A stretch of 39,028 nucleotides of DNA, taken from contig JAVCDJ010000030.1 of assembly GCA_030765845.1 (NCBI GenBank), forward strand, positions 1 to 39,028. Direction: 5' to 3'. Positions 1,674 to 38,996 of this stretch are shown here, piece after piece; the first letter of the stretch is position 1; each line of letters opens with the position of its first letter. The DNA comes from Candidatus Stygibacter australis. GTDB lineage: Bacteria; Cloacimonadota; Cloacimonadia; Cloacimonadales; TCS61. The notes under the pieces are model-generated. The model ran no database searches. It was not told the origin of the DNA and saw nothing but the letters and a program-made list of their open reading frames with translations. A program made the translations under genes and the position numbers.

Positions 1674-4600
1674 TTACTTGATGATAACCATCTTGGCATG
1701 TGACATTTTTCCGCCTGCTTCTATCCTGCTGAAATATACTCCTGAGGCGATATCATGATCGCGGTTATCCTTAAGATCCCAGTTAACCGTATGCCTTCCC
1801 GGCTGATAATGATCATCCACCAGATCAATTACCTTTTGACCCTTGATATTGTATATAGACAATTTCACCTGATCTGCCTGTGGTACATTGAAGGAAACAT
1901 TCACTGTCTCAGAACGTGTATTGCCATAATAGAATGGATTAGGATAATTAACCACACTGAGAACAGGTATTATGCTATCCTCTGTCTCAGACATCCAGAC
2001 AGGTACAAAACTGATCATACCATTTACTATATTATCTCCAGGTTCATACTCAAAATCACCTTCACGGCTGAGATCATGCTCAATACCATCAATATTAATG
2101 ATAACTACAACATCCTCGGGTAAATCATTATCTGTAAGTGAAAACATTAGAGTTTCCAGCTGCTGCATCTCAATCCTGAAATCCCAGTCCACTCTTTCTT
2201 CCAGCAGATCATAGCCAGCAATTGTATTTTGATTGAAATTTGTTAATACAGAAGCAGCAGTATCTATGATCGTGAAGAAGCTCAGATTGTTATCAGCGGG
2301 AGTCATAAATGGTTCAGGAAGATCATACAGTTTATCATATCCTGAAGAACCTGCTGGATTAAGAGCCAGAATAAGTTCATCTTCTGCCCCATTCTCCTGG
2401 TTTGCCAGCAATCGCACCTTAAGATCATAATCCTCAGTAATCAGACTGTTTTCATTGTTATTATAAGGAATAAATTTCACATCAATATTATCTACCTTAC
2501 TATACATCAAAAAAGCTTCAGTAGGATACACATAATCGACTTCATGCCAGCTTCTATCATAGGAATAAATGGCGCTTTCTATCAGATCATACTGAACAGC
2601 ATCAGCAAAAGTCATTTCCAGATTAGGAGTTACAATACGAAGGTCATCACGACGGAATCCTGATAAATAAGGATTAGGTACTATATTCCAGCCAGCTTGA
2701 ATGGTAAACTGATCATTACCACCCTGGATATCTTCTGCGATTACGCTCATATTTCCAAACTCGCTTTCCAGAAAGTAACCCGTACCGTAAAAGAAAGCTA
2801 TATCCTGCTGATACTCGTTATTTTCCAGAGTATATATATCAGCATCTTCACCTAAAATATCATCAATACTATTAGCTCCCAGGAAGGGATTTGATATCAG
2901 ATGCAATCCGGATGGAACTACCATGGCATAAGTGGAAGGCACACAGCCAAATTTGAAGCTGGATGTATATTGACGCCTGTCACCATCGATCATTTCCAGA
3001 TCTACCATGATCCTTGCATCTTCCAGGATCATATTATCAGGTACCGTCCAGTTCGTCTGGTTAAAGAAAGGCAGCAGGGATTCCCCGATCTGAATTGTCT
3101 CTGTGGGGCTTACGATATATACATCAAAATTATCTATCAGATAATTTCGGTTGATATTCCAACTGAAAGAAGCAATATCCCCTGCCTGATAAATATGATT
3201 TGCCGGATTTATAAATTCCACGGAAGGCGTGATATTACCCCAGTATAAGGTGAATTGACGCCAGGCACCACCATTATTTACATAAATATAATCATTCTGA
3301 AGAAGATCGACTACTTGACCAGAGGATTGGTCAATCAGATATAGTTTGCGTCCATCTCTGATAAACTGACCAAGAGCTGCTACAGTGATATTATCATTAA
3401 GCTGATTACTTTTCACTCTAAAAACCCAGCTCTTCAATGATGTATCAAAATTATACCCCCCTTCAATCTGCCTGGTCATACTGCTGTGGTTATCCCAGTC
3501 TTCCTCATAAAATTCGGCAAATACATATTCTCCAGAAGATGTTTCATCCTGCTCAATATCATAATCAAGATCCCAGCCATTAGACGCCTGGGGACTGGCA
3601 CCAAACCAGATATCATCTATAAGCAAACTGTCTTCATGCATGAAATGAATTGTGTAAATATCAAAGGGAGTTACATAGGCAGGATAATTGTACCAGTATT
3701 CATTACCAAGGGAGTCTGTACTTGCTGCAATATAGGCATATTCTGTCCAGTTAGTCGTAAGTGAATCTGTCCAGTTGTAAGTATAATTATCGATTCCATT
3801 TAAAGCGACCAGGTACGGATTGGTCATCCAGCTGTCCACCATGGTATATTCATTTTCATAGTCAGCTTTACGGTAAATCAGAAAACCTGCATTATCTTCC
3901 TGACGATAGGCATTAAAGCTGAAATTCACATATCCATCTCTACCTACTGCCTTCTCATAACGCAACCTGGCAGGTGCTGTGAGACAATTTACTTCATTGC
4001 TCATCTCTGAATAATTGCCATTAGCATCCAGCACCCGCATCTGGAAAAAGTATTCAGAGTTCTGATCAAGACCGGTAACCACCGTAGAAGTTGGAGCGGC
4101 ATTATTGAAATTACTGTTATTGTTTTTATCCCAGATCTCATAATTACCATTAGCAATTGGTTCAGGGGAATAGAGGATTTCATAAGTTTCATAATCGTAG
4201 CAATTAGTTTTTTGCCAGGTAAGTTCCACTCTGTCATAATTCACACTCACAATTTCCAGCGGTTCTGTCGATGTAGGAATTTCTTCATCATCATATTCAA
4301 ACACTGCTGGAATTACTGCCGATAGTGATTCGACCCAGTGGTGATAATATGCCAGGGCATTATCATATAGATGGTCATAATCAAAACGCTGAGTAATGGG
4401 ATCATATCCCCAAAACCAGTAATAATTTGCCGTGGTCTGAGGATAAATATTGGGTAATTCATCCATTTCGATATGAAAGAACGGCTCGTAAGTAAGATGA
4501 TCATTTAATCCCGCAGCTGTATAGACCATCTGTCTGTTATAGCGATATCCTACTAAGTCCACAGATCTGTTCACAGCGAAAGTAGTATCTTCATTACTAT

Positions 4601-5597
4601 AATAAAAAGGATAATCACTACAATTAACTCCATAGTATGAATTCAATGGCACTTCTGGGTGAATACCCACTTCATTGGCTGCCAGCATGATCGGGTTACC
4701 CTGATTGATAATATCCAGACCATAAAGCGAATAATCCCTGATCGGGATGCCCGGATCACCTTTTCCCCAACCAGCAGAAATCTGGCAGTTCGGATACCAT
4801 AAATGACGATTCCAGTCATAAGAATGCACCTGAATACTTAGTTCTCTGTGACTAAATGTTTCACGCAGAAAATCGCAGCTTGCCTGATAAACCTTATTGA
4901 ACATGGTATCTTCCTGCCGAGAAGGATCGCAGAGACTAAAGCTGTTTGAATAATAGCCATTACTTTCATCATAAAGGGTTTCTCGTCCTACTCCACTCGC
5001 CATATAGGCATAGGCATCTGATTCTCTGTATAACTCCAATGATACAGGTAGAATGAAGAAATCATCAGCAATATGAGGATTAGTAATAACCACTGGAACA
5101 GATGCCAAAGGATTAAATATATATACACCCCAGCCATAATCAAAAGAGCCTCTCTCGTCATCACTATCCCAGTCCGGTGTTCCATTATCATCCACATAGA
5201 TCATATTCAGGTTTTCACGAATGATCCAGTAGGTATTTCCGCTTACTGTATCATTAAATTCCACCAGAGTAAAAGGAAGTCCTGTTTCAGAGATCAGCAA
5301 ATCTGCCTGTCCGTAATTAAGATGCGTGATGGCGATCGTGATGGCACTCCAGGCTTCAAGCTGGTTTGTGTTTGGAACTGTATAGCTGCCAAATCCGTTC
5401 AACTGTCTGTCAAATGGTGCATATAGATTATAACCAGGATCAGCTACATGTTCCACCACATGCGACATCCAGTTATCATATTCCAGGTTAGTATCGTCAC
5501 CATATAAAAAGTCTTCCAGTGTCCCAGTTTCAGTTACCCAGCCCATAAGACTCAGGGTAAATGTCATTGCAAATATTATCAGTATTATCTTTTTCAT
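1674..5597 (-). CDS. Large secreted protein of unknown function with FnIII and T9SS sorting domains
   Basis: This is a 1307-residue protein with a signal peptide (MKKIILIIFAMTFTLSLMG). Residues about 20-435 form a domain I cannot assign. It is rich in Tyr, Trp and His and includes SIQVHSYDWNRH, GKGDPGIPIRDYS and EPFFHIEMDELP, which could form a metal or hydrolase site. A fibronectin type III module follows (about 440-540, VELTWQ...YFFQMRVLDANGNYSEMS), then several beta-rich modules and the C-terminal sorting domain (about 1214-1307). The usual YPNPFNP motif is YPNPFYYGN here, but the rest (LSIYNIKGQKV, IASGVYFSRI, final Lys) is standard. The ATG has a good ribosome binding site (AGGGGG, 5 nt away). 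It starts 14 nt after the stop of the gene at 5612-7525 on the same strand, so the two are probably co-transcribed. The coding call is firm; the function is unknown. Confidence 0.85.
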   Translation of the reverse strand: MKKIILIIFAMTFTLSLMGWVTETGTLEDFLYGDDTNLEYDNWMSHVVEHVADPGYNLYAPFDRQLNGFGSYTVPNTNQLEAWSAITIAITHLNYGQADLLISETGLPFTLVEFNDTVSGNTYWIIRENLNMIYVDDNGTPDWDSDDERGSFDYGWGVYIFNPLASVPVVITNPHIADDFFILPVSLELYRESDAYAYMASGVGRETLYDESNGYYSNSFSLCDPSRQEDTMFNKVYQASCDFLRETFSHRELSIQVHSYDWNRHLWYPNCQISAGWGKGDPGIPIRDYSLYGLDIINQGNPIMLAANEVGIHPEVPLNSYYGVNCSDYPFYYSNEDTTFAVNRSVDLVGYRYNRQMVYTAAGLNDHLTYEPFFHIEMDELPNIYPQTTANYYWFWGYDPITQRFDYDHLYDNALAYYHHWVESLSAVIPAVFEYDDEEIPTSTEPLEIVSVNYDRVELTWQKTNCYDYETYEILYSPEPIANGNYEIWDKNNNSNFNNAAPTSTVVTGLDQNSEYFFQMRVLDANGNYSEMSNEVNCLTAPARLRYEKAVGRDGYVNFSFNAYRQEDNAGFLIYRKADYENEYTMVDSWMTNPYLVALNGIDNYTYNWTDSLTTNWTEYAYIAASTDSLGNEYWYNYPAYVTPFDIYTIHFMHEDSLLIDDIWFGASPQASNGWDLDYDIEQDETSSGEYVFAEFYEEDWDNHSSMTRQIEGGYNFDTSLKSWVFRVKSNQLNDNITVAALGQFIRDGRKLYLIDQSSGQVVDLLQNDYIYVNNGGAWRQFTLYWGNITPSVEFINPANHIYQAGDIASFSWNINRNYLIDNFDVYIVSPTETIQIGESLLPFFNQTNWTVPDNMILEDARIMVDLEMIDGDRRQYTSSFKFGCVPSTYAMVVPSGLHLISNPFLGANSIDDILGEDADIYTLENNEYQQDIAFFYGTGYFLESEFGNMSVIAEDIQGGNDQFTIQAGWNIVPNPYLSGFRRDDLRIVTPNLEMTFADAVQYDLIESAIYSYDRSWHEVDYVYPTEAFLMYSKVDNIDVKFIPYNNNENSLITEDYDLKVRLLANQENGAEDELILALNPAGSSGYDKLYDLPEPFMTPADNNLSFFTIIDTAASVLTNFNQNTIAGYDLLEERVDWDFRIEMQQLETLMFSLTDNDLPEDVVVIINIDGIEHDLSREGDFEYEPGDNIVNGMISFVPVWMSETEDSIIPVLSVVNYPNPFYYGNTRSETVNVSFNVPQADQVKLSIYNIKGQKVIDLVDDHYQPGRHTVNWDLKDNRDHDIASGVYFSRIEAGGKMSHAKMVIIK

Positions 5598-7605: not shown

Positions 7606-7725
7606 GTGAATTGTGAGTCGTGAATCGTGAATCGCAAACTTGACAGGTACTCAGCTTCTCTGCCCTTCCGCAAATTCTACAAATCAGTCAAGTTCTCGAC
7701 TCACTATTCACGATTCACATCTCAC
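7606..7725. repeat. Long imperfect inverted repeat built of GTGAATC heptamers
   Basis: Four tandem heptamers (GTGAATT, GTGAGTC, GTGAATC, GTGAATC) start at 7606. The same kind of array lies inverted at 7697-7725. Arm 7606-7644 pairs with arm 7687-7725 at 32 of 39 positions across a 42-nt loop. The far end overlaps the stop codon of the Ntn hydrolase gene. It could act as a terminator for that gene or as an upstream leader structure, or it could be a dispersed non-autonomous repeat; the heptamer make-up favours the last. Confidence 0.75.
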
Positions 7726-10256
7726 TATTTCATCAGCACCATTTTACCTATCCGACTGTCCAACGCTCCAGATAATTTATAGAAATAGACTCCTGAGCTA
7801 AAATCCTTAGCATCCCAATTGTATATTCCTTTGCCTTGCAATCCATCCACACGCTGCACTTCTTCACCCCGGATATTATAGATAATCAGATCACATTTAC
7901 CATAATCCCCAGTATTATATGCTATCTGCGTACTGGGATTAAATGGATTAGGATAATTATATATTTCACTAATAGCCGTACTCACTTCACCTTCATCATT
8001 ATCAGTCATGCGGCTAATGGTGAATGGTATATCAAATCCATACAGCCCTTCTTCACTGTTGATTAATAAACAAAACTCCCAGTAAGTATCATATAATCCC
8101 GTAAATGAAGTCACCAGGTAAAGATATTCTCCAGGCAGAAGTGAAAACTCACCCACATCTTCTGCACTCATGGAGATTTCCTCCCCGTTTGCCCGTGTAA
8201 TCTCTGCGGTTACGTTCACATTTTCATCTAAACTCGATAGATCATATTCCAATTCACAAACGCTTTCCTCTTCAGAAGTATTAAATATCGTCAAAGTATC
8301 AAAAATGCAGTCTGACTCCCCAATATGTATCTCTTCATCACGAAGACCATTATAACTCACCTGCACAGGATTTATATATTCATCTGCTGTACTGGCTGAT
8401 TGGATTATCTGTCCTGATGCTTCGTTTACCAGGTAAATTCCCAATTCTCTGTCTTCCCAATCTCCTGCCGGCACATCCAATTCCAGTTCATAAAGTTCTG
8501 TCTCTCCCGCTTCAGGAAGCATCAGTTCTTCATCCTCCCATTGCCAGTTCAATGCCAGATTATCAATACCGGCTTCCTCACTATCTTCCCAAATAGTATA
8601 GGCAATATGATATTCACCAAAAGCTACTCCCACAATATTTTCTGTTGTGTAATGCAGCACATTATTTTCAGTATCCAGATCGATTATCTTCATCTTAACA
8701 GGAGATGACTCTAGAATCTTATTATACAATGCCCGTGAGTAATTATCTAATCCACCAGTCCAGGCATGATATCCTCTGATCAAGACTGTTGGCAATTCAT
8801 TAATATTATACATATCTGTAAGCTCAATATATTCATCAATAACAAATTGAGGATCAGCTAAAAACGTGATATCCCAACAGGTATTTGTTCCCAAGTCTGC
8901 TCTGTAGCCAGCAAATTCAGTTAAAATCTCAGGTTCTCCTTCGCTGATACCGTCTTCCAGGAATAAAAAGACGGGAGCTGTTCGTGGTGCATACCAAGGC
9001 TCATTGACCCAGCCTTGCAATTCTGCCTGAATATCTACTATAGTAGGATTTGTATTATATGCCGGCGTATTATTCTGCGTTGAAGTCCATTTACATTCTC
9101 CTTTTGCCGGACATATCTGGATCGTCATTCGCGTCCAGGTCCCTTGACCCGCCTCATCTGCCAGCACCTGCCATTGCCTTTCTGCTGTGAAATCACTGTC
9201 ACCCTCTATCTCTGCTGCCAGATTCGCATAGCGATTGCAATACTGCGGGGGATACAAAACTCTGAAATGATTAGTAGCCACCAGATTATCTCCAATTATT
9301 GCTGGGTTCAGACTATTATCAGCCTGAGTCCGCACTGCTGTCCCTACATTATTCTGCTCAATTATCACTGGTGGCTCACCATTTCCCTGCACGCATGTGA
9401 TGATAGCACCTGTGACACTATTTGAACCGCTCAAAGCATTTACCATATCCTGCTGATCACACACCCCGCTGCCATCATAATCAAGCATCTCAATTGCCTT
9501 ACGCATTGTGAGAAGCACTGGTTTATATGGTCCCGCATTAACGATAGTATTATCGCTGCCCACATCCATAAAACAGGTGAGTCCACTGGCATTTGTAGCA
9601 GAAAGCCCTGTTACAAAAAGCGGATAGGTAAAAGTAATATAGGGTTGCTCATCTTCCTCATCCGGCACGCACACCAGCAGCAGAGGATAGTTATCCAGTA
9701 TCCCAGCCCCATTCCAGTCCAGATGACGCGTCACGATCAAATCTCCCGATAGCAGCGGATCATCCTCAGTTGATTCTCCCCAACTTGATAAAGTTGCACA
9801 GCCAAAGGGCTCGCACATTTCTAGCCCCAATCCCCTTGACCTTGAGTATGCCAATACATCTACAACGGCATTCACCATGGCAATATCATATTCATCTATT
9901 TCCCTGCCCAAAGCAGTAATATAAATACTCTCACCGGCATCTGAAATCCCTTCCAGGGCAGCAGCAAATTCCTCCAGGTATTCAGCATCTATTTCCCAGT
10001 TTGCCAAAAACAATGTCCGGCTCATTTCATACATATAGTTGCTGCCATTATACATATACCCTATCACATAATCTTCAAATAATTGCACGCTCTCTTCTGC
10101 CAGCAGATAACCCTGAGCATAACCACGCTCAGCATGAGTACCCCAGCATCGCACCTTCATCCTGCCCTCTGCCAGATCCTCCCGTACACCATTAACCTGG
10201 CCCAATATACTATTGACCATCAGTAAAATTAGAAATAAAATCACAATTCTTTTCAT
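7725..10256 (-). CDS. Secreted C45-type Ntn hydrolase (acyltransferase/amidase-like) with T9SS tail
   Basis: This is an 843-residue protein with a signal peptide (MKRIVILFLILLMVNSILGQ). Residues about 30-400 resemble the C45 autoproteolytic acyltransferase / phospholipase B-like Ntn hydrolases. The domain opens with CWGTHAERGYAQGYLLAE, has a candidate nucleophile Cys153 in FGCATLSSWG, then GDLIVTRHLDW (175-181) in the place where the family carries its Arg/Asp-Trp strand, and later GLTCFMDVG. In this family, self-cleavage before the Cys exposes an N-terminal nucleophile that attacks amide bonds. Substrate classes vary (penicillins, bile acids, N-acyl amides), and nothing here tells which applies. 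C-terminal Ig-like modules and the sorting domain (about 760-843, NYPNPFNPSTQIAY) put it outside the cell or on the surface. The start codon follows GAGGCG at good spacing. Family confidence is moderate to good; the substrate is unknown. Confidence 0.8.
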   Translation of the reverse strand: MKRIVILFLILLMVNSILGQVNGVREDLAEGRMKVRCWGTHAERGYAQGYLLAEESVQLFEDYVIGYMYNGSNYMYEMSRTLFLANWEIDAEYLEEFAAALEGISDAGESIYITALGREIDEYDIAMVNAVVDVLAYSRSRGLGLEMCEPFGCATLSSWGESTEDDPLLSGDLIVTRHLDWNGAGILDNYPLLLVCVPDEEDEQPYITFTYPLFVTGLSATNASGLTCFMDVGSDNTIVNAGPYKPVLLTMRKAIEMLDYDGSGVCDQQDMVNALSGSNSVTGAIITCVQGNGEPPVIIEQNNVGTAVRTQADNSLNPAIIGDNLVATNHFRVLYPPQYCNRYANLAAEIEGDSDFTAERQWQVLADEAGQGTWTRMTIQICPAKGECKWTSTQNNTPAYNTNPTIVDIQAELQGWVNEPWYAPRTAPVFLFLEDGISEGEPEILTEFAGYRADLGTNTCWDITFLADPQFVIDEYIELTDMYNINELPTVLIRGYHAWTGGLDNYSRALYNKILESSPVKMKIIDLDTENNVLHYTTENIVGVAFGEYHIAYTIWEDSEEAGIDNLALNWQWEDEELMLPEAGETELYELELDVPAGDWEDRELGIYLVNEASGQIIQSASTADEYINPVQVSYNGLRDEEIHIGESDCIFDTLTIFNTSEEESVCELEYDLSSLDENVNVTAEITRANGEEISMSAEDVGEFSLLPGEYLYLVTSFTGLYDTYWEFCLLINSEEGLYGFDIPFTISRMTDNDEGEVSTAISEIYNYPNPFNPSTQIAYNTGDYGKCDLIIYNIRGEEVQRVDGLQGKGIYNWDAKDFSSGVYFYKLSGALDSRIGKMVLMK

Positions 10257-11175: not shown

Positions 11176-11204
11176 TTGACAGCAATAATATAAATTTAGA
11201 GAAT
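11176..11204 (+). promoter_or_regulatory. Putative housekeeping promoter for the beta-helix protein
   Basis: TTGACA at 11176-11181 lies 61 nt before the ATG at 11237. The -10 position at 17-nt spacing reads GAGAAT (11199-11204), a weak match. Confidence 0.45.
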
Positions 11205-11236
11205 TGGTTTGGAACAAAATAAGCAGAGGAGACAAT

Positions 11237-14128
11237 ATGCGATTAAGGATTTTTTTTATACTGATAATTATAATCTTTTCCCATATCGCACGTTCAGATA
11301 TCATTGATGCCGAAGGTGATCAAAGCGGAATCTGGCAGAGTGGCAATACTTATCAGGTAGTGGGTCATATTTACGTAAATACAGGCAACACTCTTCTGAT
11401 CGAACCGGGAACAACAGTGATGTTCATGGCACATTATACATTTACAGTAACAGGTATCCTTATTGCTGCCGGAACGAATGCAGATTCCATACTCTTTACT
11501 TATGACAGGTCTAATACTCAATCCGATAACTGGAACCGGATATCCTTCGAGGAATCACAGTCTTCAGCTAGTATAATTTCATATTGTATTCTTGAATACG
11601 CTTCTGTACCCATTAGCTGCCGGGAAAATGCAAATATCCTGATTTCCAATAATACTTTTCGTATAGGCTTAGTTGCTATTGAAGTTGTAAGGTCTTCACC
11701 TTTGATCCAGTATAATCACATGGATGACTACCATAAAGGTGTTTATGCTGAGGAAGCATCAGCACTATTAGTCATACGCAGAAATGTGTTCACCAATATG
11801 TCATTTGCTGGTGTATGGTGTAGCAGCGCTGATAGCTGCCTGGTCGAAGATAACACTGTTCTAGCATCAGAAAGTTGGGGAATATACTGTTGCAGCACTG
11901 ATGCAATAATCAGAAATAATGTTATTCATGGTGCCGGAGGCTATGGTATTATCTGCAGATATCAGATGGAATCCATAATTAGCAGAAATCTGATCACAGA
12001 CAGTTATGGAGGTGTAGCTTATGATTCTGCTCAACAAACTGAATTGATCAATAACACCATCGTAAATTGCAAAACAGGATTATATTTGGATGATGAAACT
12101 GAGCCTATTGATATAATAAATAATATTTTCTATGATAATTACACAGCAATGAATCTGCATTTGCCGGAAGATTACTGCTTCAGCAATAATCTATTCTGGG
12201 AAAACAGCATCAATTTAACCGGGAGCGAAATGGTTGATCTGGGGATCATCTGCATGTATAATAATAATGGTACTCCATGTGATATATATCAAAATTTATT
12301 TACAAATCCATTATTTGAAGATCCTGAGCTTGATTATTACACACTGACTATTAATTCACCAGCTATCGACGCCGGTCTAAACAGTTATGAATACTATGAT
12401 CCCGATGGCACGATTGCTGATTTAGGAGCTTATTACCTGCCGCAAGCTCCAGCAATCCCTGTCGCTGCTTTCACCTCAGACATATACTTCGGTCAAGCAG
12501 ACCTGTGTGTTAGTTTCCGCTCAGAATCCACTGGCTATATTGATACCTATCTCTGGAATTTTGGGGATGGAAATACCAGTAATGCAGAAAATCCTGTTCA
12601 CATATATGAAGAAAATGGCGAGTATAATGTATCTCTTACCGTATCAGGACCTTCTGGTTCTGATACTTGTCAGGAAGAAAACTACATCATAGTAATGCCC
12701 CAAATACAAGTTAGCGGTGATCTTTCTGGTCTTTGGACATCTGAATATTGCTACTGCCTGGTGGAAGATGCCTCCATCAATCATAATACTACTCTCACGA
12801 TAGAACCAGGAACCCTGATCAGGTTTATGGGGCAATATACTTTGACAGTAATTGGAACTTTGATTGCTGAAGGTACAGAAACAGACAGTATCAGGTTCAC
12901 ATCAGGCAACCGGCGACCTTTTGAAGGAGACTGGGCATCAATAAACTTTATAACCAGCGAAGCAGACAACAGCGTATTTAATCATGTAATAGTGGAATAT
13001 GCAGAAATAGGGATTTATTTGCATTATACTGCTTTACATATCACGAATTCGAGGATTTCTGATAATTTTTGCGGAATTGAAATCATGGAAGCAGCACCTG
13101 TGATTGAAGGGAATTATATTACAAGTAACTATGATCTTGGTATGGATATCCATGATAATTCCCCCTGTACAGTTAGTAATAATTACTTTTATGATAACCA
13201 GGAAGATATTTTTCTTAGAACTTATGGCCCTCCTCTTATCACTGGAAATACTTTCAGAAAAGCACAAAGAAAAGCAATCAGGTGTTATGGCACAACTGCC
13301 GATATATCGGGTAATTTATTTATCGACAATCCTGTAAGTATCATACTTGATGCAAGTTATCCGCTCATACATCATAACGTGTTTTGCGGAGGCGGCACTA
13401 CCGGAGTCTGGGGTTTTGGCGATAATAATACTCCCGAGATTTATAATAATACCTTTATCAATCTAATTTATGGAATTCGTATCTTCACTTCAACCCAATT
13501 TTTGGTCACGAACAATGCTTTTTATGGTAATGAATATGCCCTTTATTCCTATCCCCTAACTTCTAATTTAGATCATAACCTATTTTACAATAATGTGATA
13601 AACTACGGTGGTAATGTTCCCGACTGGTTTGAAGTAATAGAATATGAGAACGAAAATAGTGATCCCTGTGATCTCAATTATAATCTGTTTATATCACCTG
13701 AATTTGTTGATCCGCAGTTATTAGATTTTCATCTAACCAGAGAATCGCCCTGCATAGATGCTGGAAATCCTGATCCCATCTATAATGATCCTGATGATAC
13801 AATCTCCGATATTGGGGCATTTTACCTTCATCATCTGGTCGATAATGATGAAAATGGAATCATGCCTTCTGAAATTTCTTTTGCCAGTTACCCTAATCCT
13901 TTTAATCCCGAAACTAATATTGAATTTGAACTTGAGGATGCTGGAAAAGTAAAATTGACGGTTTATAATATTAAGGGACAAAAAGTGGCAGAACTGATTG
14001 ATGAAGAAATGGAAGCCGGCAAACATAGTCTTGTCTGGAATGCTAAAGGGTGCGGTAGTAGCTGCTATTTTATACACTTGTCCACAGGATCGTATTCACT
14101 ATTTCAAAAAGTGGTCTTACTTAAATAA
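11237..14128 (+). CDS. Secreted right-handed beta-helix protein, internally duplicated, with PKD and T9SS domains
   Basis: This is a 963-residue protein. I chose ATG 11237 over the upstream TTG at 11204 because AGAGGAG lies just before it and the signal peptide starts there (MRLRIFFILIIIIFSHIARS). Residues about 20-405 and 487-870 are two copies of one unit. Each opens with a GIW/GLW strand and an IEPGT...F.....TV..G.LIA.GT..DSI.FT block. Each continues with parallel beta-helix rungs (repeated NN.F, N.I, GI strands) and closes with SPAIDAG/SPCIDAG followed by DLGAYYL/DIGAFYL. A PKD domain (about 409-485, YLWNFGDGNTSNAENPVHIY) separates the copies. The sorting domain occupies about 874-963 (SYPNPFNPETNIEFEL). 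Such helices often bind or cleave polysaccharides, but no lyase motif is evident, so surface binding is as likely. It is monocistronic. Confidence 0.88.
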   Translation: MRLRIFFILIIIIFSHIARSDIIDAEGDQSGIWQSGNTYQVVGHIYVNTGNTLLIEPGTTVMFMAHYTFTVTGILIAAGTNADSILFTYDRSNTQSDNWNRISFEESQSSASIISYCILEYASVPISCRENANILISNNTFRIGLVAIEVVRSSPLIQYNHMDDYHKGVYAEEASALLVIRRNVFTNMSFAGVWCSSADSCLVEDNTVLASESWGIYCCSTDAIIRNNVIHGAGGYGIICRYQMESIISRNLITDSYGGVAYDSAQQTELINNTIVNCKTGLYLDDETEPIDIINNIFYDNYTAMNLHLPEDYCFSNNLFWENSINLTGSEMVDLGIICMYNNNGTPCDIYQNLFTNPLFEDPELDYYTLTINSPAIDAGLNSYEYYDPDGTIADLGAYYLPQAPAIPVAAFTSDIYFGQADLCVSFRSESTGYIDTYLWNFGDGNTSNAENPVHIYEENGEYNVSLTVSGPSGSDTCQEENYIIVMPQIQVSGDLSGLWTSEYCYCLVEDASINHNTTLTIEPGTLIRFMGQYTLTVIGTLIAEGTETDSIRFTSGNRRPFEGDWASINFITSEADNSVFNHVIVEYAEIGIYLHYTALHITNSRISDNFCGIEIMEAAPVIEGNYITSNYDLGMDIHDNSPCTVSNNYFYDNQEDIFLRTYGPPLITGNTFRKAQRKAIRCYGTTADISGNLFIDNPVSIILDASYPLIHHNVFCGGGTTGVWGFGDNNTPEIYNNTFINLIYGIRIFTSTQFLVTNNAFYGNEYALYSYPLTSNLDHNLFYNNVINYGGNVPDWFEVIEYENENSDPCDLNYNLFISPEFVDPQLLDFHLTRESPCIDAGNPDPIYNDPDDTISDIGAFYLHHLVDNDENGIMPSEISFASYPNPFNPETNIEFELEDAGKVKLTVYNIKGQKVAELIDEEMEAGKHSLVWNAKGCGSSCYFIHLSTGSYSLFQKVVLLK

Positions 14129-29229: not shown

Positions 29230-32200
29230 TTATTTCAAAAGTAATAATTTAGAATATTTACTTATCTGAGGACTTCGGAAAGAAGAGAAATATATACCAG
29301 AAGCCAGTTTTCGATTATTATCATCCTTGCCGTTCCAGGTAATAGTATAATATCCGGGAGCAAATTCTTCAGATGCCAGGGATTTTACCTTTTGTCCTTT
29401 AATATTATAAATATCCAGATTTACAAATTGAGTTTGGGCAAGTTGAAAAGCAAAAGTAGTTTCAGGATTGAATGGGTTGGGATAATTACCATTGAATGAG
29501 GTTACTTCAGGGATATCAGTATCTGAATTGGGTGTGCTTGTATATGAAAGATAAACCGGAAGAGTAGATTCATTTCCAAAATTATCACTTACATATATCG
29601 AAGCACTGTAATCTCCGCTTTCAAGACCCTGGGGCTCACAATTAATCTCAACATAAACCGTTTCATTGGGAGTAACAAACCCCTCATCTGGAGTAAGAGA
29701 AAGCCAGGAAGTCTCATATGGTTCGATCCTGAGCTCAAATTGTCCTAGAAAAGAAGAAATATTCCATAATCCTAGTTGAGCTGAGTCAGTTGCATTATCA
29801 GCCAGTTCAAAAGAGAATTCCGCCGTATCTATCAGTAATACTTCGGGAGCATTTCCGCTTGCTGCAGGAAATTGTATATCATCAAGCCAGAAGCAATCAG
29901 AGCCTCCTTCAACTCCGATATCCTTTTCATATTCCCACTTCAAAGTATATTGCCCCACTGGCAGATCATATTCCAAAAACATCCAGCCAGTTTGACCACT
30001 CCAGTCATCCTGAATAATTTCATCAATATAGAAGCTTACCACATCCCAATAAGATTCAGTGGATACATACATCCAGTACGCTATCTCGCCAGGCTGAGAA
30101 GTAATGATATCAACTTCCAGCCAGGTGATTTGATTATCTCCGATATCACCACTTACGGCTGCATAATTACCATTATGAGATGTAGTAGAGATTGTGAAAT
30201 CTGCATCTCCACCAGTTTCCCAGGGGAAGCGGGAAAAATCTCCGCTTTCAAAATCCTCTAGGGATACACCAACAGTGACTGCATAATCAAATCCAGTATT
30301 AAAATCAAAATCACCATCAACATTCAGCAGAAATTCCAGATTATCACCTTCTTCAACCGAATTATCCACAGAGGCAGGAAAAATAAGATATGATTGATTA
30401 CTGCCAGGTATCTCACTTAGTTGATTAGATGGCTGTCCAAGACTAAGAGCAGGATCCATAGGATAGGCAGAAAATATCGGAGAAAACACTGCTGCACCAC
30501 CAGTATTATTGATCACAATTCCCAGATCAAATGATTCTCCCGGGTCAATCATCTGATTATTATTATCATCATTCATAATAAATGTATATCCCGGTTCCAG
30601 ATCAGGTGCATTTATGGTATAAGTTCTGTTCCCCGTAAAGGAAATTCCATTGTAGTAAACAGTGATCTCAAGATCAATCAGATGACCATCAGGGCAATCA
30701 TTACTTACTTCTATTTCAAATCCTGTTTCGGGATATAGAAATTCACCTCCAGGAATGTCTGGATAAGTTATTGAATCCTGAGTGAGAATAACATAATCAT
30801 CTTCCAGAGCAGCTATAGCACTAACATTTTCTGCTGCCCCTTGACCAATATTATTCAGCGAGATCAAGATCTCAGCGTTTTCTCCATAATCAATCTGACC
30901 ATCCCCTCCGCTATCGATCACATTGTCTCCATAGAGCACCAGATAGGCTTCTTCATAAGGTATCGGCTCGCTTGTAAAAAAGATAGCAGAGCCATCCTGC
31001 AATTGATCTGCCTGAACAGGATAAACATTATTATAGGTATATTCAAGCCCGTGTGTACTGGTGTGATCTTCTATTCCTATCGTGGCAAATTGGCCATGAA
31101 GGACATAATATCCACCATAAGAACCCTGATCATCATTATTGAATTCTTCATATTGAAAAAGCAGATTACTGTTTCCACCAGTTGATGGATAATGATCTGA
31201 GTCATAAATTATCGCTTGAAATGTAACTTCCGAATAGCTGTAATCTATCCGCAAACGCGACCATTCGACAATAAAAGTATGATTCACCTGGTCATGATAA
31301 TAGCACACATTTCCAGTAGATGTTATCAGATCATCCCAAAATGGTGCGATCATTGGTGAAGGTCCCCCTGGACCTGGAATTGACCAGTTCATAAAATCCC
31401 GAATTCCTGTGTCACCTGGTGATATCCAGCCATTGGAACAGATAGATATTTCATCATAATCTATACCATAAAATTTGAAACTGATCGGGATATCAACCAC
31501 TTCTGTATCTCCTGTATTGCCATTATCATATAAATTTAATACTGTCCCCTGTCCCCCGTAAACCGGATCAATCTCTATCCAGTTATATTCAGGGCAATCT
31601 ATATAGCCAATATCTGACTGATCATAGCAGTAATATCCTCCTCCATCAGGACCCAGAGGGTCCCCGATTCCCGCTTCACCTACAGTAATTAAAAAAGTAA
31701 CTGAGGGATGATCAAGTTCAGGTGTCGTGATATGTAAGGTTAATTCTATTTGAGTACCTGGAATTATATCTGATTGGGCAATTATATGAAATGGGTCAGC
31801 AAAATTATTTCCTATGCTCGCACTGGGAATTTGTCCACAATAACCAGAAATATCAGAAACCACCAGTTTTGGGTTATTACTCGCTAATTCTAAATTCACA
31901 TTAGAAGCTAATTGCTGACCGGCATTAAGCAGATATACTATAAGATCAGTTTCTTCTCCAGGATCAAAATGTCCTGATATACTCAGTTCATAATCTTCCA
32001 GAAGTAGACTGGGTGCAAATACAGTATCAGAATAACGGAACGTCCAGATCTCACCCGAGCCAGCGAGAGTGAAATCAATGATCAGGTCATCTATTCCTGT
32101 AATATTATCCGGTAAAATTAAACTGATATTGGGATCCGTTGTATATGTCCCGTTAGCTTCAATTTCAGATATATCAAGACTATTATTAGTGAACTCAATC

Positions 32201-34323
32201 CCGGGGGTTGATGATTGGGCAGTCAAAGTGAGATCGCTGATATTTTCACTGAAATAACTCGTTAAACTAAGCTGCAGTTCAATTTCTTCTCCCGGACTGG
32301 CCAATCCATCACCATTACCAGTCACATTATCTATCACCTGAAAATCCGCTGAAAAATATTCAATATCATCAGCCAGTTCAAGTTCACTTTGCCAGGGAAC
32401 AAAATTATGTTTACTTACTGTAAGCATCAGTTCACCAGCAGTAAGATCTTCTAAAGAAATCCAGGCAGAACCTGATGCTTCAGAATATACAGATATTGAA
32501 TTCTCCTCTTCATCTAAAAGTGTTACCAGGGCATTTTCAACCGGATATCCACCTGATAATATCTGAACCTCTATTTGAGACATCCCCGGATTTAATTGCT
32601 CAGGACAGACCACACTAAGCTGCTCTGGTACGTCACTCCAAATTTCCATTGCCGGATCTCCCATAAGATTATTCCAGGAAATAAACTGATGCTGAGCGTT
32701 TGCTGGATTAGTGGGGAAATTTATGTACATATTAAGTTTTCCCCGCATCAAACCCATTCCCATGTCCCAATTCTCATCAACGAATAATCCCGTCCAGATT
32801 CCCTGATCAATACAATTATTATACGTGGTATGCGTAAGACTTGTTGCTGTACTGATTGCTGCCACTGCTCCCATAGGATTTGTTGTAGAACCCACCTTCA
32901 GAAAACGTTCACTCATGCAGTCACCATAACTGGCATAAGACCCCGTCGCGCAGGTGAGGAATACAACTACTGGTAACATACTTCCATTAGTAAGGTTATT
33001 TATTGCATTAACACTCCAACCGCTGAAATCACCATGACCGCGATAATTGAAATAAACACAACCCTGATTTAAATTGATGTTTATACTCGAAGAGTAATTG
33101 CCGCTGAACACATTTATAGGATCTATATTGGGAGCTGTGATTGCCATCATATCGTCCACATATAGCTTGGTATCAATACAGGAAGTACCGGACGTGGATG
33201 GATCTCCCACCATTAATGCCCGGTTAAACCAGTTAGTATTTCCCATATATGGTTCTTTCTCATAATTTATTATCTTAGAAATTATACTTGCCAGTTGGGT
33301 TGTTGTATCAAAAGGGATCCTCCCGATAGCTGCATCCGGTAAGATATCATTACCTTCCAGCATCACAAAATCATTATCCGTTTCACCTGTATCTATCCAG
33401 AAACAGGGGATAGTAAAACTGCCATTGGCATCTCCCACCAGGCATACATATTCTGGTGGATTCTCCCAGTCATCATAAGCATCCTGAATATAATTCTGAA
33501 TATTATTTGCTGAATTACCGGCTTGAGAAAGAGAGGCAGTGTGAACTTCAAAACCCTTTTGCTGACGCCAGTCCACCAGGTACTGCAGATAATCTTCCAC
33601 TGTGTTATTATTATAATAGATATATAGGATACAGGGTTTCTGAAATTCTTCTGTTCTTTTGACACTTTCATAATTCACTACAGTTTTACTGTACAACTTA
33701 TCAAAAGCCCGTGAAGGTTTTTTCACCTTTGTAATTTCATTAATTCCCGGTTGATCTTCTGCAAATATCCGCACTGTTATCTGCTGATTGATGATCAGAT
33801 TTCTGCTTAATGCATCATATTGAAAAGGATTGAAGGTTACACGCACCAAACGGTAATCACGCATGATCACAGGCTCTCCTGTCATGGCAGCGGATTCAGG
33901 ATATATGGAATAACTGCCGTAAACATCTTCATTGATCACAAAGCTACGGTCAGGTGGCTGACTTTCAGATTGCAGGTTTTGACGCGGATATAACCTGATT
34001 TCTTCTTCGATTGTCTGCTGAACAGAGATAATTTCAAATCCTATCCTTCCCTGATCCGGTACTGCCACCAAGGTGCTGAAACATGGCACTTCAGGATATC
34101 CAGGTAAGGCATATTCTCCCCCACCAGTAGTGATGATCCGCTGATAACTGTTACCTTCGGCTTCTATTTCCTCTATCTGATAATCAGGAATACTAAACTG
34201 TAATTCAGTTGCTTCCTCATTTTTTACGCATTCAATATTATCAGCCATGAAATTGTTAACACTGTTTGCATTCAGGACAATTATCAGGCTAAATAGTAAA
34301 CATAACATTATCTTTATTTTCAT
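29230..34323 (-). CDS. Giant secreted gingipain-type cysteine peptidase (C25) with T9SS tail
   Basis: This is a 1697-residue protein starting at the third of three clustered codons (TTG 34329, ATG 34326, ATG 34323). I prefer 34323 for its 6-nt spacing from AAGGA and its clean signal peptide (MKIKIMLCLLFSLIIVLNA). Residues about 25-200 look like the C25 propeptide. Residues about 225-570 are the peptidase, with catalytic His430 in NYRGHGDFSGW and Cys458 in VFLTCATGSY, as in gingipains. Ig-like and CARDB-like modules follow. Next is a module with SNGWIS and APFWDDL (about 890-1120), then a jelly-roll module near 1354-1484 (DFESGDFSRFPWETGG) that matches the one in the protein at 5612-7525. The sorting domain is at about 1610-1697 (NYPNPFNPETTFAF). 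The catalytic residues are intact, so it should cleave proteins outside the cell. A sigma-54-like promoter lies just upstream. It is monocistronic. Confidence 0.93.
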   Translation of the reverse strand: MKIKIMLCLLFSLIIVLNANSVNNFMADNIECVKNEEATELQFSIPDYQIEEIEAEGNSYQRIITTGGGEYALPGYPEVPCFSTLVAVPDQGRIGFEIISVQQTIEEEIRLYPRQNLQSESQPPDRSFVINEDVYGSYSIYPESAAMTGEPVIMRDYRLVRVTFNPFQYDALSRNLIINQQITVRIFAEDQPGINEITKVKKPSRAFDKLYSKTVVNYESVKRTEEFQKPCILYIYYNNNTVEDYLQYLVDWRQQKGFEVHTASLSQAGNSANNIQNYIQDAYDDWENPPEYVCLVGDANGSFTIPCFWIDTGETDNDFVMLEGNDILPDAAIGRIPFDTTTQLASIISKIINYEKEPYMGNTNWFNRALMVGDPSTSGTSCIDTKLYVDDMMAITAPNIDPINVFSGNYSSSININLNQGCVYFNYRGHGDFSGWSVNAINNLTNGSMLPVVVFLTCATGSYASYGDCMSERFLKVGSTTNPMGAVAAISTATSLTHTTYNNCIDQGIWTGLFVDENWDMGMGLMRGKLNMYINFPTNPANAQHQFISWNNLMGDPAMEIWSDVPEQLSVVCPEQLNPGMSQIEVQILSGGYPVENALVTLLDEEENSISVYSEASGSAWISLEDLTAGELMLTVSKHNFVPWQSELELADDIEYFSADFQVIDNVTGNGDGLASPGEEIELQLSLTSYFSENISDLTLTAQSSTPGIEFTNNSLDISEIEANGTYTTDPNISLILPDNITGIDDLIIDFTLAGSGEIWTFRYSDTVFAPSLLLEDYELSISGHFDPGEETDLIVYLLNAGQQLASNVNLELASNNPKLVVSDISGYCGQIPSASIGNNFADPFHIIAQSDIIPGTQIELTLHITTPELDHPSVTFLITVGEAGIGDPLGPDGGGYYCYDQSDIGYIDCPEYNWIEIDPVYGGQGTVLNLYDNGNTGDTEVVDIPISFKFYGIDYDEISICSNGWISPGDTGIRDFMNWSIPGPGGPSPMIAPFWDDLITSTGNVCYYHDQVNHTFIVEWSRLRIDYSYSEVTFQAIIYDSDHYPSTGGNSNLLFQYEEFNNDDQGSYGGYYVLHGQFATIGIEDHTSTHGLEYTYNNVYPVQADQLQDGSAIFFTSEPIPYEEAYLVLYGDNVIDSGGDGQIDYGENAEILISLNNIGQGAAENVSAIAALEDDYVILTQDSITYPDIPGGEFLYPETGFEIEVSNDCPDGHLIDLEITVYYNGISFTGNRTYTINAPDLEPGYTFIMNDDNNNQMIDPGESFDLGIVINNTGGAAVFSPIFSAYPMDPALSLGQPSNQLSEIPGSNQSYLIFPASVDNSVEEGDNLEFLLNVDGDFDFNTGFDYAVTVGVSLEDFESGDFSRFPWETGGDADFTISTTSHNGNYAAVSGDIGDNQITWLEVDIITSQPGEIAYWMYVSTESYWDVVSFYIDEIIQDDWSGQTGWMFLEYDLPVGQYTLKWEYEKDIGVEGGSDCFWLDDIQFPAASGNAPEVLLIDTAEFSFELADNATDSAQLGLWNISSFLGQFELRIEPYETSWLSLTPDEGFVTPNETVYVEINCEPQGLESGDYSASIYVSDNFGNESTLPVYLSYTSTPNSDTDIPEVTSFNGNYPNPFNPETTFAFQLAQTQFVNLDIYNIKGQKVKSLASEEFAPGYYTITWNGKDDNNRKLASGIYFSSFRSPQISKYSKLLLLK

Positions 34324-34358
34324 CATCAATCCTTAACTACATTATTTATATAGTTTGT

Positions 34359-36806: not shown

Positions 36807-38996
36807 CTATTTAGAATTGCAGGCAAGGCGGAAGCCGAGGTGGTCGGGGCTGTAGCCAGGGGAGTAGCAAATGCGATTAGCTATGCGGCAGAAACTGGCA
36901 TTGACGCGCCAGCTACCACCCCGATACTCACGGTCAGAGCCAGAACCTGGACCATGTGGATCATTCTGCGTACCGCTGCTGTAAGCTCCATCCCAATCCC
37001 AGCACCATTCATATACATTGCCACTCATATCATAAATACCCAGCTCATTAGCTTTCTTACGGCCAACACTATGTATTTTATTTCTAGAGTTATTATCATA
37101 CCAGGCTACACTACCAATATCATTACTGCCAGAATACTTATAACCTTTGCTTTTATTACCACCACGTGCTGCATACTCCCATTCAGCCTCTGTTGGCAAT
37201 CGGTAACCATTAGCATTGAAAACACACTTGATATTTTTACCTGAACCAGTATAACAACGATCAAGTCCTTCCTGATCACTCAACTTGTTGCAGAACTCCA
37301 CTGCATCATACCAGCTTACATTTTCTACTGGTGCATCTTTTCCAGTTTGTTTAAACTTAGCAGGATTCTTACCCATCACAGATTCATATTCACTCTGAGT
37401 TACTTCATATTTACCTATATAAAAATCACTCACTGTCACACTATGCACTGGTTTTCCATTATCATCACTACTTGTGCCACCCATCTGGAAAGTGCCACCT
37501 TCCACAAATACCATCCATTCTGGAACATCACTACCTTCTTCCAATGTAACTTGCTTTTGTATAGTTTCATCTGCAGTCAGACGGAATTCCTCTTTATGAG
37601 TTTTATAGCCATCAGCACTAACAATCAGTTCATATTCCCCTACTGGCACATCAGTAAAAGTCTTCCTGCCAATTGAAGCATAATGCTCCCCTGCATCTCC
37701 TGTAAGTTCTATCTTTGCATCTGCGGGAATGCACATCACCTGGATCACACCTGTCTGCACTTCCGGATACATCTCTATTGTCTCTTCTGCTTTAGGTTTA
37801 AGGGTAATTACACGCTTTAATGGCTCAACTTTGGGCATTGTTACCTCAATTTCTAATACTTGAGGTGCTACTTTCTTATTAGAAACTCCACCCTTGTAAC
37901 TCTCTCCCTTAAATTTAACTGTCGCGTTGTCATGGGTTTTCACCGTCAATATTGCTGCAATATCTTCTGGATATAGTTCAAATACTTTCACCTCTTCCTT
38001 CTTCAATGTATAAGTTTCTTCAATGGTTTCGCAAAATTCCTGTTCGATCTTAAAATTTATGGTTTGAGGAAGCAACAAAAGTTTATCAATTCCTCCTTTA
38101 TAATCATTTCCATTAAGTTTCACAGTCGCATTGGGATTGGTATTCACCGTCAGCGTAGCTCTAATATCAGTCAGTTTATAATGCTTCTTAGTTTCAGGCT
38201 CAATGATCGTGATCTGCTCATTAATAGTTTCATAGTTTTCTTTTTCGATCCGAATAGTATAAGTGCCGGCATCATAGAAACTTTCCAGCGGAGTTACGCC
38301 CATTTTCATATTACCGTCAATAGTAACTGACGCTCCCTCAGGTTCAGATGTTATTTTCACAACAGCCGGCATCGCTGGCACTAACTCAAAATGGAAGGAA
38401 TTATTAATTACTGACACCTCTTCCGTAATTGATTGAGTTGCAAAGCCATCCTTAGTAATTCTAATTACCCGTTCTCCCTGATTCACACTTATAGTCAGCA
38501 TTTTATTTTGTGTAGTTCCCAGTAATTCGTCATCAATAAATATATCTGCACCAGATTGATTACTGGTAATAACAACCGGTATCTGCTCAGCTTTCTTCTC
38601 ACCTGTAAGTTTCAGATGATAAACATCCCCAGATTTTACACTGTTTATCCCAAAGGATGAAAGCACTACTTTCAAAGGCTCAAAACCTTCGGCATGCACA
38701 TCAATAGCCCGTTCACCGGGTGATACATACACATTCCATCTGCCCATTGCCGGATTAGTGATCTTGCCCACTGCCCCGTTCCAGGGACGAAAATCCATAT
38801 CAACATCCAGATCAGTGATAAATGAAACCAGAGCTGCCTGATTTTTATTAGCATCCAGTTTATCACCAGGCACGATCTCGCCCGTTGCCCGGATTGCCTT
38901 ACCCACAATAGAAAGCTGATTTAATTCCTGACCTGACAAAATACTGATTGAAAGCCCTATTAACAAAATAAAAACTAAATATTTATTACTTATCAT
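36807..38996 (-). CDS. PEGA-repeat protein with C-terminal SUMF1/FGE-fold domain and DGR-like variable end
   Basis: This is a 729-residue protein with a signal peptide (MISNKYLVFILLIGLSISILSG). Several PEGA/PEGA-like modules follow (about 140-210, 212-275, 285-345, 348-410, 413-482; for example ITSEPEGASVTIDGNMKMGV). Residues about 488-729 are a formylglycine-generating-enzyme-like (SUMF1, C-type-lectin) domain: FVEGGTFQMGG, YEVTQSEYESVMGKNPAKF, PVENVSWYDAVEFCNKLS, GYRLPTEAEWEYAARGG, DMSGNVYEWCWDW, RGGSW, GFRLA. Of the two active-site cysteines of true FGE only the second is kept (Cys703); the first position is Val698, so the oxidase reaction is unlikely and a binding role fits better. The last 35 codons show a DGR-like pattern (see the entry at 36810). 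GGGGGAT precedes the ATG. It ends 223 nt before the LPP20-like gene. Confidence 0.9.
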   Translation of the reverse strand: MISNKYLVFILLIGLSISILSGQELNQLSIVGKAIRATGEIVPGDKLDANKNQAALVSFITDLDVDMDFRPWNGAVGKITNPAMGRWNVYVSPGERAIDVHAEGFEPLKVVLSSFGINSVKSGDVYHLKLTGEKKAEQIPVVITSNQSGADIFIDDELLGTTQNKMLTISVNQGERVIRITKDGFATQSITEEVSVINNSFHFELVPAMPAVVKITSEPEGASVTIDGNMKMGVTPLESFYDAGTYTIRIEKENYETINEQITIIEPETKKHYKLTDIRATLTVNTNPNATVKLNGNDYKGGIDKLLLLPQTINFKIEQEFCETIEETYTLKKEEVKVFELYPEDIAAILTVKTHDNATVKFKGESYKGGVSNKKVAPQVLEIEVTMPKVEPLKRVITLKPKAEETIEMYPEVQTGVIQVMCIPADAKIELTGDAGEHYASIGRKTFTDVPVGEYELIVSADGYKTHKEEFRLTADETIQKQVTLEEGSDVPEWMVFVEGGTFQMGGTSSDDNGKPVHSVTVSDFYIGKYEVTQSEYESVMGKNPAKFKQTGKDAPVENVSWYDAVEFCNKLSDQEGLDRCYTGSGKNIKCVFNANGYRLPTEAEWEYAARGGNKSKGYKYSGSNDIGSVAWYDNNSRNKIHSVGRKKANELGIYDMSGNVYEWCWDWDGAYSSGTQNDPHGPGSGSDREYRGGSWRVNASFCRIANRICYSPGYSPDHLGFRLACNSK
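36810..36925 (-). other. Candidate DGR variable region (3' end of the SUMF1-fold gene)
   Basis: Between fixed residues (RGGSW, NA, CR, A-NR, SP, GFRLA) lie short blocks of seemingly free residues: RV (697-698), SF (701-702), I705, ICY (709-711), GYS (714-716), DHL (718-720). In minus-strand codons these are cgc gtc, agt ttc, ata, att tgc tac, ggc tac agc, gac cac ctc. Eleven of 14 end in C. That is what adenine-specific mutagenesis of AAC codons in a template repeat gives (AAC to NNC). The stretch is also clearly richer in GC than the rest of the gene. No template repeat or reverse transcriptase is in this window, so the system, if present, would act from elsewhere. Confidence 0.5.

Follow-up and report, generated by a model that had tools for sequence, protein, structure and literature searches.

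A C-terminal variable repeat in a PEGA-FGE gene of Candidatus Stygibacter australis fits the template of a diversity-generating retroelement in a sister species

The C-terminus of a PEGA-repeat protein encoded in a 39,028-nucleotide stretch of Candidatus Stygibacter australis (contig JAVCDJ010000030.1; hereafter the window) raises two questions: is it a target of a diversity-generating retroelement (DGR), and, if so, which DGR wrote its present sequence? The gene and its parts are as follows.

36807–38996, minus strand: target gene of 729 codons, with a putative signal peptide, PEGA repeats and an FGE domain, and the variable repeat (VR) at the C-terminus.
38184–38363, minus strand: the strongest of three PEGA stretches (PF08308; the protein as a whole scores 107 bits).
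36822–37514, minus strand: FGE-sulfatase/C-type-lectin domain, TvpA-like (PF03781, 179 bits; 2Y3C, E = 3.9e-52).
36807–36941, minus strand: DGR VR, from GGCTCTGACCGTG to the stop codon; its 5′ edge is the start of similarity to the template repeat (TR) of a sister species.
36837–36908, minus strand: variable codons R697 to L720 (RVN.SF....N.ICYS.GY.PDHL), NNC or NNT at the AAC or AAT positions of the template, between constant residues.

Judged by inspection, the N-terminus is probably a signal peptide that directs secretion. Pfam places PEGA repeats ahead of the C-terminal FGE-sulfatase domain, and the closest match among solved structures is Treponema denticola TvpA (2Y3C), followed by a bacterial FGE (E = 8.6e-21). 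The TvpA alignment runs without gaps across the VR, which sits at the ligand-binding C-terminus of the C-type-lectin-like domain. PF03781 is shared with the formylglycine-generating enzymes (FGE/SUMF1), in which a C-terminal cysteine pair is catalytic. Unlike those enzymes, the window protein has an incomplete pair: aligned to the bacterial FGE 6s07, it carries the variable residue V698 at the position of the first cysteine, which argues for a binder more than an enzyme. A binding role is likely and an enzymatic one unlikely, and we infer that the product is a surface binder. Elsewhere in the window (1674–5597, 7725–10256, 11204–14128 and 29230–34329), many large, secreted-looking proteins have sorting-like C-terminal domains of the YPNPFNP... 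type, which we take to be associated with FCB-group bacteria.

The C-terminus encoded at 36807–36923 (minus strand) reads RGGSWRVNASFCRIANRICYSPGYSPDHLGFRLACNSK. Among the 14 codons that the first-pass annotation had named as variable, 11 are NNC (CGC, GTC, TTC, TGC, TAC, GGC, TAC, AGC, GAC, CAC and CTC), a form that accounts for 9.8% of codons in the gene outside the VR and 10.9% within the remaining FGE domain. At the former frequency, 11 or more NNC codons in 14 would be expected with P = 2.3e-9, and the reported excess is real; GC content outside the VR is 39.7%. Codons ending in C make up 23 of the 38 across the flagged stretch, and the bias extends to constant codons, which copying of the entire segment from a template would predict. 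The list of variable codons was sound as far as it went, but it left out the variable S712 (TCC) and P717 (CCC). Similarly, the variable region had been placed at 36810–36925, where one does lie, but its footprint is longer, with similarity to the sister-species TR beginning at 36941.

We searched the window's own assembly (G000; 3.82 Mb, 278 contigs, 95.4% complete) for RVT_1 and obtained a match on contig C147, within the following locus.

C147, 4301–8297: complete DGR locus with FGE target, HRDC gene, avd, reverse transcriptase (RT) and TR.

The genes lie in the order of a 577-amino-acid FGE target (a putative lipoprotein with Ig/fn3-like repeats), an HRDC-domain open reading frame, a 119-amino-acid Avd (NF033474, 86.4 bits against a cut-off of 80; Pfam bAvd also matched) and a 332-amino-acid RT bearing IGNLTSQ, a motif that we take to be typical of DGR RTs, followed by an AAC-rich repeat, the TR (RGGNWNNNANNCRVANRNNNNPDNSNNNIGFRI). 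This TR differs from its own cis target at 22 of 38 adenines and at none of 64 other bases (p = 2e-12), and the lack of non-A mismatches indicates a recent footprint. On sequence criteria C147 is a complete DGR whose footprint is unblemished. An RT, an avd gene and a template, for which the first-pass annotation had suggested a search of the genome, are all present here, together with the HRDC gene. Viral contigs and GTDB contigs scanned with the C147 RT yielded only distant relatives (23–37% identical) and no evidence of a phage origin.

That the C147 DGR serves the window gene in trans and wrote its present VR is nonetheless improbable. It is the sole DGR in the assembly, and its TR aligns to the window VR without gaps and with mismatches concentrated at adenines (24 of 38 A, 9 of 64 non-A; p = 6e-7). 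The nine non-A mismatches, against zero in the C147 cis target, nevertheless imply that this TR was not the last writer. Most of these nine bases are common to other FGE genes of the genome and to the sister TR, and they therefore mark a different template and not random decay. In addition, the 3′ ends of the window VR and the C147 TR diverge after GGCTTCCGC. The earlier proposal of a DGR target, possibly served in trans, is thus supported by the A-biased mismatches to templates, but not with the resident TR as last writer.

A fitting template was found in G001, a sister species of the same genus, in which contig C295 holds a second DGR: it has an FGE target, its HRDC gene overlaps the RT, and its TR ends after 56 bases at the contig end. 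Over these 56 bases, which cover only the 5′ half of the VR and, as regards an IMH comparison, stop before the 3′ end of the TR, the window VR mismatches at 8 of 14 adenines and 2 of 42 other bases (p = 7.5e-5). Other VRs of G000 differ from this TR at similarly few non-A positions (C48b and C208, 1/42; C183, 2/42; C48a and C205, 3/42), and a VR on contig C118 of a third species, G002, differs at 10 of 14 adenines and at no non-A position (0/42). One of the two non-A deviations in the window, TGC where the TR has TGT, is found in five of the six G000 VRs, which suggests that a G000 version of this second template acted in the G000 lineage, a point that turns on a single site. A former state of the C147 TR, since drifted, keeps a small residual probability as the writer; the RT of C147, however, shares only 41% identity with the one adjoining the fitting TR. 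With substitutions restricted to adenines of a TR and a TvpA-like fold, the first-pass claim that the C-terminus of this PEGA-SUMF1 protein is a DGR target holds, and the evidence supports a DGR footprint at 36807–36941 (minus strand), the last approximately 45 codons of the gene.

An origin without any DGR would invoke ordinary diversifying selection, or gene conversion between FGE paralogues: RGG.W, C, R, P and GFR, the residues that stay constant, are usual for the FGE family, and about 18 FGE genes in the genome could exchange DNA. Upstream of the VR, however, with the G001 gene as reference, the FGE domain mismatches at a rate of 0.23 at A and 0.25 at non-A; a general A bias is therefore absent, and clustering at template adenines is confined to the VR. 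Mismatches between the window gene and its C48a paralogue fall on first, second and third codon positions as 39/35/76 upstream and as 8/10/3 in the VR, and those between the window gene and the G001 target as 39/27/83 and 8/10/3. The third base is kept in all ten VR codons at which the window and the G001 target differ in amino acid, and the codon-position controls on the window VR give p = 0.0019 and 0.00035. Third bases thus change least where amino acids differ and most upstream, which is not how ordinary divergence or paralogue gene conversion would act. We regard an origin without a DGR as effectively refuted, and read the inversion of codon positions as the product of copying an AAC/AAT template with errors at A.

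We therefore favour, with considerable confidence, a reading in which a second DGR, of the TvpA/HRDC type, targeted the window VR in trans and has a core that is either unassembled or recently lost. Mutagenic retrohoming would start from an AAC- and AAT-rich template RNA; its reverse transcription would introduce errors at adenines, and the resulting cDNA would replace the segment at 36807–36941, randomizing about 14–16 codons and keeping the structural residues. The writer would be a DGR of the Treponema TvpA/HRDC type and not that of C147, and we infer that it acted in the G000 lineage, where its trans targets would comprise at least six FGE genes, spread over five contigs.

These second-type VRs lie on C30 (the window), C48 (twice), C183, C208 and C205. 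The C48 genes form part of a tandem array (C48, 1–7300) of at least three FGE genes, with a fourth cut by the contig end, and an unassembled DGR core could well lie in this array. In the C205 gene (18674–19384) the FGE domain with its second-type VR is followed by an extension that by inspection is thioredoxin-like, so this VR is internal and not C-terminal. A further locus on C205 (23966–24649) carries a VR of a third template type, which mismatches the TR on contig C130 of genome G022 at 25 of 36 adenines and 8 of 72 other bases (p = 1e-9); because the C147 RT is the sole DGR RT in the assembly, the writer of this VR is missing too.

Searches of the 95%-complete G000 by RT family, template pattern, sister TR DNA and sister RT found no second-type RT or TR. 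The template pattern recovered only the C147 TR and a C48 VR, a 60-base search with the sister TR recovered only VRs and the C147 TR, and the sister HRDC protein found no free-standing second HRDC gene. Three candidates were set aside: a second RT match, on C119, is a group-II-intron-like fragment with stops at a contig end; a second HRDC match, on C244, resembles the C-terminus of a RecQ helicase and not a DGR remnant; and on contig C147 of G002, an RT adjoining an FGE gene is group-II-like and has no AAC-rich repeat there. G002, also about 95% complete, has near-perfect VRs yet no DGR RT and no second-type RT or TR.

The second core may have been dropped from the assembly, as metagenome assemblies tend to lose loci that contain a TR and many near-copies, or recently lost in two species, and we judge the two about equally probable. 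Loss would make the window VR a dead relic that had the same writer and now evolves as an ordinary gene end, a sub-case of the favoured reading that we consider plausible but lean slightly against. That the core was found in neither of two approximately 95%-complete genomes, G000 and G002, speaks for a relic, as do precedents in T. denticola strain SP32 and in core-less strains of that species (PMC4891356). Against it, the G001 contig is broken inside the TR, so such loci assemble badly, and non-A changes in the G000 VRs are few (1–3 of 42), from which any loss must have been recent.

Whether or not the core persists, the case documents a multi-target, lectin-type receptor repertoire in a lineage of which our literature search found no description. 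A broader scheme, which we put forward only tentatively and consider rather doubtful, is that FGE/lectin receptors form a common pool within the genus, alongside at least two or three DGR cores that are interchangeable (template types 1, 2 and 3), the receptors outliving the cores. Were this so, species would carry VRs whose writer exists only in a relative, and these VRs might be reactivated once a matching core is regained.

The system appears by analogy to be of a known kind, a remote DGR target, of which T. denticola is the closest published case. There, TvpA is a DGR target, and the DGR has FGE targets, an accessory HRDC gene that overlaps the RT, and remote targets that also occur in core-less strains (PMC4891356). 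The likeness extends to the C-terminal VR in FGE/C-type-lectin targets, to the several remote targets and to the HRDC-RT overlap seen in G001. It also covers a remote VR that is better matched by the TR of another genome: in strain SP32 the TR of another strain suits such a VR better than the resident one does, with 19 of 21 mutations at adenines (PMC4891356). The present case differs in its bacterial lineage, in the PEGA repeats of the window target, in the additional avd gene of the C147 DGR and in that the fitting template lies in another species of the genus and not another strain. In Thiohalocapsa PB-PSB1, which has several DGR loci in its genome and likewise FGE-type CLec targets, some of them with no local RT or TR, trans service was deduced from perfect non-A matches and population variation (PMC10907252). 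At every non-A site those targets agree with a TR from their own genome, and they vary in populations, whereas the TR that fits the window VR lies in a sister species and the VR is known from one assembly. A survey covering over 30,000 DGRs, keyed on repeats beside the RT, acknowledges that remote targets escape it (PMC8144416). The window shows how remote targets may be recognized without a template, by codon-position inversion relative to the remaining gene, and then tied to the template of a relative; what it adds to the known systems is a PEGA-lectin target, at least six second-type targets within a single genome and a template seen only in a different species of the genus.
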